Part shown: positions 1,789 through 59,051 of the stretch, piece by piece
Numbering within the stretch: position 1 is the stretch's first letter
How the letters are laid out: each line of letters begins with the position of its first letter
Source: Niabella drilacis
GTDB lineage: Bacteria > Bacteroidota > Bacteroidia > Chitinophagales > Chitinophagaceae
NCBI RefSeq assembly: GCF_900101395.1
Contig: NZ_FMZO01000006.1
Location: 1 to 64,000, forward strand
Direction: 5' to 3'
Length of the DNA stretch: 64,000 nt
The notes under the pieces: model-generated
Seen by the model: the letters and a program-made list of their open reading frames with translations, nothing else
Databases searched by the model: none
Told to the model about the DNA's origin: nothing
Translations under genes and position numbers: made by a program

Positions 1789-2036
1789 CAGGGCAAATGC
1801 ATCTGAATTGGGTGAAAAGAGCGGGAACGGGAACACAATCAGGCACTGTAAGCGTCCCTGGTTTATAGCAAGGGGTTAAAGAGCAAACCCCGGCTCCTAC
1901 AGGAGCCGCGTAACATTGTCAGGGCTCGACAAACACGAGGCTCCTTTGGAGCCAGACCAATTAAAACAACACATTTGCTATAAATACAATGCTCCTCCGG
2001 AGCTGAGCAATGCTGAAATCAGATGCGTTTGTCCTG
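1789..2036 (+). repeat. Repeat family A, copy 2 (MITE-like, intact)
   Basis: A 248-bp element. Its ends CAGGGCAAATGCATCTG (from 1789) and CAGATGCGTTTGTCCTG (to 2036) are inverted repeats with 18 of 21 positions matching. The interior holds small hairpins such as CGGCTCCTacAGGAGCCG, GGCTCCtttGGAGCC and GCTCCtccGGAGC. The flanks TCAGAATCG (1780-1788) and TCAAAATCG (2038-2046) match in 8 of 9 bases and look like a target-site duplication. It encodes nothing convincing, so if mobile it depends on a transposase elsewhere. Confidence 0.8.
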
Positions 2037-16196: not shown

Positions 16197-16439
16197 CAGG
16201 GCAAACGCATCTGATTTCAGCATTGTTCAGCTCCGGAGGAGCAGCGTGTTTATAGTAATCTGCTGTTTTATCAACCCGGCTCCTGTAGGAGCCGCGTGTT
16301 TGTTGGGCCCGAAATTTTACACGGCTCCTACAGGAGCCGGCTTTTTTCTTTAATACCTTGCTATAAACACGCGGCACTTACAGTACCTGAAAATGCTCCT
16401 GGTGTGCTCTTTTCACCCAATTTGGATGCGTTTGCCCTG
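16197..16439 (-). repeat. Repeat family A, copy 3 (MITE-like, inverted, intact)
   Basis: A 243-bp element in the opposite orientation to copy 2. Its ends CAGGGCAAACGCATC (from 16197) and GATGCGTTTGCCCTG (to 16439) are perfect inverted repeats over the outer 15 bp. Internal hairpins include CGGCTCCTgtAGGAGCCG and CGGCTCCTacAGGAGCCG. The flanks CGGTACAT and CGGTATCAT agree apart from one inserted base, consistent with a target duplication of about 9 bp. Confidence 0.8.
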
Positions 16440-58754: not shown

Positions 58755-58986
58755 CGGGGCAAACCTATCTAAATCGGGTAAAAAGGGGAGCCCGGAACCG
58801 TTTCAGATATTGTACCTCTTGCTTATGGCAAGGTGTTTCCCGGCTCCCGCCGGAGCCACGTAAAATTGCCGGGGCCAAACAAACACGGGGTTCCTTTGGA
58901 ACCCTGTTGATCAAAACAACACATTTGCTATAAACACGCTGCTCCCCCGGGAGCAGATCAATGCTGACATTAGTTGTGTTTGTCCT
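58755..58986 (+). repeat. Repeat family A, copy 4 (MITE-like, diverged)
   Basis: A 232-bp copy in the SRPBCC-csaA gap. The ends (GGGGCAAACCTATCT near 58756 and TTGTGTTTGTCCTG to 58987) are diverged inverted repeats; the internal GGGTAAAAAGGGGAG, CGGCTCCcgccGGAGCC hairpin and ACATTTGCTATAAACACGCT block match the family. GCGCCCAAA occurs directly on both flanks (58745-58753 and 58987-58995), an apparent 9-bp target duplication. Part of the GCGCCC could instead belong to the element end, as in copy 1. Confidence 0.7.
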
Positions 58987-59051
58987 GCGCCCAAATCCTG
59001 CAGCATGGTCTTTTTATCGTATATTCCGCATATACATAAATAACAAAGCAC

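Follow-up and report, generated by a model that had tools for sequence, protein, structure and literature searches.

The window analyzed here is the first 64 kb of contig NZ_FMZO01000006.1 (C30) of Niabella drilacis, whose genome of 6.1 Mb is assembled in 45 contigs, and it carries four copies of a short repeat, Family A. All four copies listed in a preliminary description of this DNA are present, with bounds that we now place at 113-297, 1789-2036, 16197-16439 and 58755-58987. Copy 3 (16197-16439, minus strand, 243 bp) has outer ends that form 15-bp perfect inverted repeats, as had been reported, both of them exact matches to CAGGGCAAACGCATC. Between these ends lie four hairpins and two copies of an 11-bp tail motif: hairpin H4 (GCTCCGGAGGAGC, minus strand, 16230-16242, placed by sequence reading and alignment) with an adjoining tail motif, CGTGTTTATAG, on the plus strand at 16245-16255; H3 (GGCTCCTGTAGGAGCC, minus strand, 16278-16293) and H2 (GGCTCCTACAGGAGCC, minus strand, 16323-16338), both placed by alignment; and a second tail motif on the minus strand at 16361-16371 (CTATAAACACG as read on the plus strand), adjoining H1 (GGCACTTACAGTACC with one mismatch, minus strand, 16373-16387, again by alignment). 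The repeat flanking copy 3 has decayed (CGGTA-CAT on one side, CGGTATCAT on the other) and falls below the duplication score we used.

The other three copies lie on the plus strand. Copy 2 (1789-2036, 248 bp) has hairpins H1 to H4 between two ends of the type found in the ISAs1 family of insertion sequences, each with one mismatch, and is flanked by a target duplication, ATCAGAATCG at 1779-1788 on the left and GTCAAAATCG at 2037-2046 on the right, in which 9 bp of the left side match 2038-2046 with one mismatch. Copy 1 (113-297) has a right ISAs1-type end at 283-297 and, by sequence reading, lacks both a left end and H3. A different repeat, ending in CCGGTTCATTAT at about 112, occupies positions 1-112 in place of that left end; the contig starts right at this repeat, near which two other loci (L035 and L127) have a hairpin, CGGTCAGTG-CACTGACCG. 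Copy 4 (58755-58987, 233 bp) has decayed ends with three mismatches each in 16 bases, and CGCCCAAA flanks it on both sides. A second kind of repeat, TIR-2, with long inverted ends (CCCGAAGTTTCGCAT-TGCGTCAGG) and many partial matches elsewhere in the host, lies at 2062-2395. A scan of the window against Rfam returned nothing at gathering scores.

Family A is a large family in this genome. Its ends conform to CAGGGCAAACGCATCT, and the 15-mer end, allowing two mismatches, occurs 79 times on one strand and 74 on the other, against 3 and 6 for the reversed pattern; a search with the 243-bp copy 3 returned 81 aligned pieces. Pairing the ends at 65 host loci (L001-L064 and L140) gave 52 rows, which reduce to 45 distinct two-ended copies once two duplicates are removed along with five pairings that were alternative or dubious, so that the family comprises at least 45 two-ended copies, a count that leaves out places with a single recognizable end. 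The copies are 102-408 bp long, mostly 243-250 bp, and none contains a transposase gene. A young group of 24 copies, to which copy 3 belongs, comprises those with at least 93% identity to at least two others. Two copies, on C2 and C32, may represent one site, because their flanks are mutually reverse-complementary and lie near contig ends. At one locus (L043:1993-3262; G000:C16:374992-376256) five copies follow one another head-to-tail at 256-bp intervals, separated by an invariant spacer, ATATCTTTCTG, an unusual arrangement for a cut-and-paste miniature inverted-repeat transposable element (MITE). A 1.3-kb stretch considered as an autonomous copy (L044:1994-3282) was rejected, its open reading frames (ORFs) reading as an AraC-type regulator and an SDR-type enzyme. 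With rough ORF calling, 36 of the 45 copies lie between ORFs, nine overlap the end of an ORF and none lies inside an ORF of at least 100 amino acids; about 80% of the copies' flanking sequence is covered by ORFs.

The flanks of these copies carry the mark of transposition. An exact 10-bp duplication borders 14 of the 45 copies; if one mismatch is allowed over 8-10 bp, the number is 31. At a score of at least 7, duplications were found in 25 of the 52 real rows and in none of 2,484 cross-pairings, in which a left flank was combined with a right flank of another contig; a looser score gave 31 real rows and six cross-pairings. The earlier inference of transposition from ends and flanking repeats is thus borne out by the duplications at 31 of 45 copies, the empty control and one empty site, and of the direct repeats of about 9 bp then described, the repeats stand while the length is corrected to 10 bp as a rule. 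The empty site concerns a 408-bp copy (L024, C33:108703) that breaks the right end of a TIR-2-type repeat and is bordered left and right by TTGACGCGCA. In five TIR-2-type ends that are not interrupted, this sequence occurs once, either exactly (L133 in the host, and L141 and L075 in the congener genome G008) or with one changed base (L137 and L127, in the host). The site was spotted by eye and then checked, and what the compared loci have in common is the repeat's end, not its interior; matching of flanks for an empty site within the genome returned nothing beyond the tandem array paired with itself and a single related flank. Three 408-bp copies (L024, L025 and L026) occupy three sites, each with its own, different duplication, and the enlarged unit therefore seems to have moved whole. 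These copies contain a nested insert, some 165 bp long, whose ends are GAGCCTGTTTAAA and which is possibly a further MITE; it was read directly in L024 and inferred in L025 and L026 from their length and an alignment break at the same place.

Copy 2 stands some 80 bp upstream of an ORF that we name purQ-like from its sequence, and the element is absent from the corresponding interval in all eight congeners in which both flanking genes could be aligned (G005, G006, G008, G010, G011, G012, G015 and G016), where the alignment blocks are a shorter 54-343 bp apart. The comparison of empty sites proposed in the preliminary description succeeds at one place, the shared repeat end at L024, and not across species, where the exact point of insertion cannot be aligned.

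The ends of Family A are those of ISAs1 elements. A search of congeners with the 15-mer identified the kind of insertion sequence that the preliminary description had suggested looking for: an element of 1,223 bp in G014, bounded on either side by an exact CAGGGCAAACGCATC end, with two ORFs that match the ISAs1 transposase model NF033564, one at 206 bits (cut-off 70) and the other, at 66.6 bits, below the cut-off. Because the match is split over two ORFs, we take the transposase gene to be broken. A second congener, G007, has six near-identical ISAs1 copies with no stops in the gene and CAGGGCAGACGCATT-type ends, two of the six with one base changed at one end, and all six are flanked by exact 10-bp duplications. 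Among four plasmid ISAs1 elements from other phyla, ISOan1, ISAzs15 and one from Vibrio combine CAGGG-type ends with exact 10-bp duplications, and the fourth, from the cyanobacterium Fischerella, has ends with one and no mismatches to CAGGGCAAACGCATC and no duplication. The host was searched for two transposase families, ISAs1 and Y1, and NF033564 matched nothing in its 45 contigs; across the genus, the model has matches at E<=0.001 in three of 17 genomes, one of them weak. A cognate transposase in the same genome, as looked for in the case of an ISAs1-derived MITE, was not found in this host. MITEs can outlive their cognate transposase.

The interior of Family A has a separate identity, that of a cluster of four short palindromes arranged as H1-CGTGTTTATAG...H2...H3...CTATAAACACG-H4. 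The exact 11-mer CGTGTTTATAG occurs 35 and 40 times on the two strands of the host genome (control, 1), 15 and 22 times in G008 (1) and 8 and 6 times in G016 (1). The remaining 14 genomes of the genus contain it 0-5 times each, with 0-6 for the controls. All 45 copies have at least one tail motif at no more than two mismatches, and the cluster also occurs outside them. Among fourteen host places outside the known ISAs1-ended copies, seven have both tails and hairpins (L127, L128, L129, L133, L135, L137 and L138), five have one tail (L130, L131, L132, L136 and L139), one (L134) resembles a chance match and one (L140) has one ISAs1-type end. The H1-H4 layout without ISAs1 ends is found at loci of G008 and G016 as well, and TIR-2-like ends surround several such clusters in the host and in G008. 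In an alignment of 27 diverse cores, H1 stays paired where both of its arms have changed, at one base pair in as many as 12 sequences; the total covariation term for these cores, computed with no control, is small (-0.18 of -22.01 kcal/mol).

In congeners the same cluster flanks genes for Y1 transposases, which we located in six genomes by matches to Pfam Y1_Tnp (PF01797). The tail motif, at no more than two mismatches, stands on both sides of the Y1 genes at L107, L117, L124 and L126 and upstream only at L114, and a variant of it stands on both sides of the gene at L148. These six genes form one clade, with at least 80% amino-acid identity to the L114 protein (main piece), and the motif is absent beside most other Y1 genes scanned. 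At L145 a gene sits in the middle of the otherwise gene-less cluster, in the order H1-tail-H2-gene-H3-tail-H4. The host's own Y1 genes reach 46% identity at most and lack hairpin-plus-motif units alongside; the host assembly contains no close relative. All five Y1 proteins compared with NCBIfam models score above the IS200/IS605 cut-off (NF033573) and below that for REP-associated tyrosine transposases (RAYTs), where REP denotes repetitive extragenic palindromic sequences; membership in the RAYTs was accordingly rejected (NF047646, 27.4-32.5 bits against a cut-off of 80). In G008 (L144:985-1730), the two tails of a CGTGTTTATAG cluster enclose a different, truncated Y1 gene that has other hairpins, an arrangement that looks like a Y1 element that jumped into the cluster of another. 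In G005 (L117:1096-2028), a Y1 gene and its hairpins lie between two TIR-2-like ends, and the Y1 cluster therefore occurs within two kinds of terminal repeat.

We kept 80 relatives of the Y1 protein from 128 found in public genomes and counted GC-rich stems of 6 bp within 130 bp of the gene and in distant windows. For the 46 relatives with at least 65% identity, such a stem was found in 29 of 44 flanks on the downstream side and in 16 of 46 on the upstream side, compared with 12 of 519 distant windows. For the 34 below 65% identity, the corresponding counts are 5 of 34, 7 of 31 and 7 of 401. The motif GTGTTTATAG, at no more than one mismatch, occurs 114 times in the 46,259 bp within 300 bp of a gene and 36 times in the 172,409 bp beyond. 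The protein motif Y---Q--HH, present in 72 of the 80 relatives, is the signature of TnpA-Y1 subclass 1.2, a subclass that, as described in PMC6006769, generally lacks typical terminal hairpins. The relatives found here resemble subclass 1.2, as that text describes it, in this motif, in the shortness of the protein and in coming mostly from Bacteroidota records, and differ from the published description in that GC-rich flanking hairpins are frequent at 65% identity or more. They are also more varied at the HUH motif: a table in the same source lists DH[IV]H for the subclass, whereas we find [DN]H[ILVF]H in 55 of 80 and DHTH or DHAH in 23. Subclass 1.2-like genes of Mucilaginibacter, Limnovirga, Dyadobacter and other Bacteroidota (L238-L278) often have hairpins together with the same tail motif.

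To compare ISAs1-ended elements with Y1 loci across the genus, we stripped the ends from 19 cores (three from the host, one each from G005, G007 and G012, two from G008 and 11 from G001) and matched them to 45 Y1 loci, obtaining 55 matches at E<=0.001 and none with the reversed cores. The host and G005 cores match the Y1 clade that carries CGTGTTTATAG. Six of the 11 G001 cores match Y1 loci of another branch, either L163 of G001, at a few bases and at about 610 bp from the gene, or L165 of G007, where the distances to the gene are 6 and 35 bp. For the G007 core, matches lie at L163, about 610 bp from the gene, and in the flank of L108 in G005. One G008 core (L082) aligns over 22 bp, at E 0.011, with the region flanking a Y1 locus in the same genome (L109). 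In a tree of the 27 aligned cores, host cores with one or two recognized ISAs1 ends group together (98/99), apart from a single G008 row on a long branch that falls among them. A separate group (95/99) holds the end-less host cores. This topology fits a putative single hybrid origin in the host lineage.

Two mobile-DNA lineages, one DDE and one HUH, thus appear fused in one spreading element. Our explanation of Family A, to which we assign a probability of roughly 0.78, is that it is a MITE with ISAs1 ends that holds a REP-like Y1 hairpin cluster, similar to a bacterial interspersed mosaic element (BIME), and that it was spread in trans by an ISAs1 transposase. The outer 20 bp or so on each side would be the terminal inverted repeats of an ISAs1-family (DDE) element, and the core would be the four-hairpin cluster of an IS200/IS605-like Y1 (HUH) transposase whose gene has gone. 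In an ancestor of this strain, ISAs1-type ends may have come to bracket one hairpin cluster. An ISAs1 transposase acting in trans would then have cleaved the DNA at the CAGGG ends and moved the unit into sites between genes with duplication of 10 bp, and the unit would have been amplified to at least 45 two-ended copies, some of them probably after gaining the insert of about 165 bp. Since no ISAs1 gene and no close Y1 gene was detected in the host, the family looks either stranded or in wait of an enzyme. The preliminary description's view of a MITE-like, transposed family holds; what it missed is the separate history of the core with an IS200/IS605-type Y1 transposase.

Several observations weigh against this explanation or narrow it. 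Fourteen of the 45 copies have no duplication at the level used (8-10 bp, at most one mismatch), and at the purQ interval the insertion point cannot be aligned across species, the joined flanks in two congeners ending about 33 bp short of it. The G014 element that shares the exact ends has no duplication and a broken gene, and the ends of the intact G007 elements differ from host-type ends at two of 15 bases; with no autonomous ISAs1 in the host, mobilization in trans is therefore drawn from congeners. Several end-less cores sit in TIR-2 (CCCGAAGTTTCGCATGCGCGTCAAG), so that a core without ISAs1 ends is not necessarily a core without ends. Finally, seven of the 19 genus cores have no Y1 match at E<=0.001 (two from G008, one from G012 and four from G001), and a seventh G001 core (L177) has its sole match at a G003 locus, at a distance of about 940 bp from the gene; the Y1 link is thus shown for part of the ISAs1-ended elements and not for all.

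Among alternatives, the one that fares best is a variant with the reverse order of events, in which a non-autonomous Y1-type hairpin element inserted into an existing ISAs1 MITE and was then carried along. We regard this as possible, though it is the less favored history. Y1 clusters also occur within TIR-2, a location that insertion into repeats would explain, and the G008 locus described above resembles one Y1 element within another's cluster. Against it, no core-less precursor was recognized, because the tail motif (at no more than two mismatches) is present in each of the 45 copies; these copies were found through likeness to the cored element or through their paired ends, single ends not being followed, which bears on how far such a precursor could have been seen. 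A proposal compatible with fusion of the two lineages is that the hairpins were retained for a function at gene ends, as transcription terminators or stabilizers of mRNA. This is unlikely on present evidence: the placement of copies between ORFs or at ORF ends (36 and nine of 45, none inside) and the kept pairing of H1 agree with it, but the same placement is expected from selection against gene disruption, and the covariation term is small.

Two further readings are much less probable. Family A could be an ordinary ISAs1-derived MITE within which hairpins arose, its likeness to REPs being convergence; many bacterial MITEs have hairpins, palindromes of the GGCTCC...GGAGCC type are simple, and the seven unmatched genus cores would be at home in such a scheme. 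We consider it very improbable, since the match to the host family covers tails, spacing and order and not palindromes alone, and since the same core occurs without ISAs1 ends in the host and in congeners, with 55 matches to Y1 loci against none for reversed controls. Least probable of all is a TIR-type Y1 element whose CAGGG ends are recognized by the Y1 enzyme and not by ISAs1, like the TIRtrons of Di Nocera et al. (2013): terminal inverted repeats beside Y1-type genes are described in PMC3733652 and TIR-2 brackets one Y1 locus of G005, but no Y1 gene was found between CAGGG ends, the hallmark of a TIRtron, in 49 Y1 loci (three of which overlap others), where the single stray match is at chance level, and the 10-bp duplications regular in Family A are unlike IS200/IS605 members, which, according to PMC2817692, make no larger target duplications.

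Set beside known systems, Family A shares CAGGG-type ends and 10-bp duplications with ISAs1 insertion sequences and the MITEs derived from them, and differs in being gene-less with an interior made of a Y1-type hairpin cluster and not of ISAs1 sequence. With REPs, BIMEs or REPINs and their RAYTs (TnpA-REP), its core shares short, opposed, G+C-rich palindromes, many copies outside ORFs and the presence of the same units beside a Y1 transposase gene, here in congeners and not in the host; it differs in being a four-hairpin unit within DDE-type ends that carry duplications. Non-autonomous IS200/IS605 elements of the PATE type are gene-less Y1 derivatives and in this respect akin to Family A; we know of none with DDE-type ends. 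TIRtrons with their TIRYT transposases, and REP dimers within longer palindromes, likewise join REP-like units to unrelated inverted repeats, and in the available part of PMC3733652 those outer repeats are not the ends of a DDE element; the terms 'TSD' (target-site duplication) and 'ISAs1' are absent from its main text. Judged from its sequence, then, Family A behaves as an ISAs1 MITE. By membership it falls outside the REP/RAYT systems, although its core is built like one of them. A literature search by title and the start of the abstract, with most subscription journals outside its reach, returned nothing on an ISAs1-ended element with a REP core, and the word Niabella appears in none of the matches listed.

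More speculatively, such hybrids may form repeatedly and by advantage in separate Niabella lineages, one of the host/G005 type and one of the G001 type with the other Y1 branch, as gene-less elements open to two unrelated enzymes, a DDE transposase acting on the ends and an HUH enzyme on the hairpins, so that REP-like clusters outlive and outspread their own transposase; we hold this to be doubtful. In the accounts drawn on here, the spread of REPs and BIMEs is commonly credited to an HUH enzyme alone, although the matter is unsettled. In Niabella drilacis, a REP/BIME-like cluster travels in cut-and-paste ends with clear duplications, in a genome in which neither enzyme was detected. For the little-studied Y1 subclass 1.2, the sequences presented here would supply a likely DNA substrate: hairpins with a common motif near the gene, in several genera of Bacteroidota.
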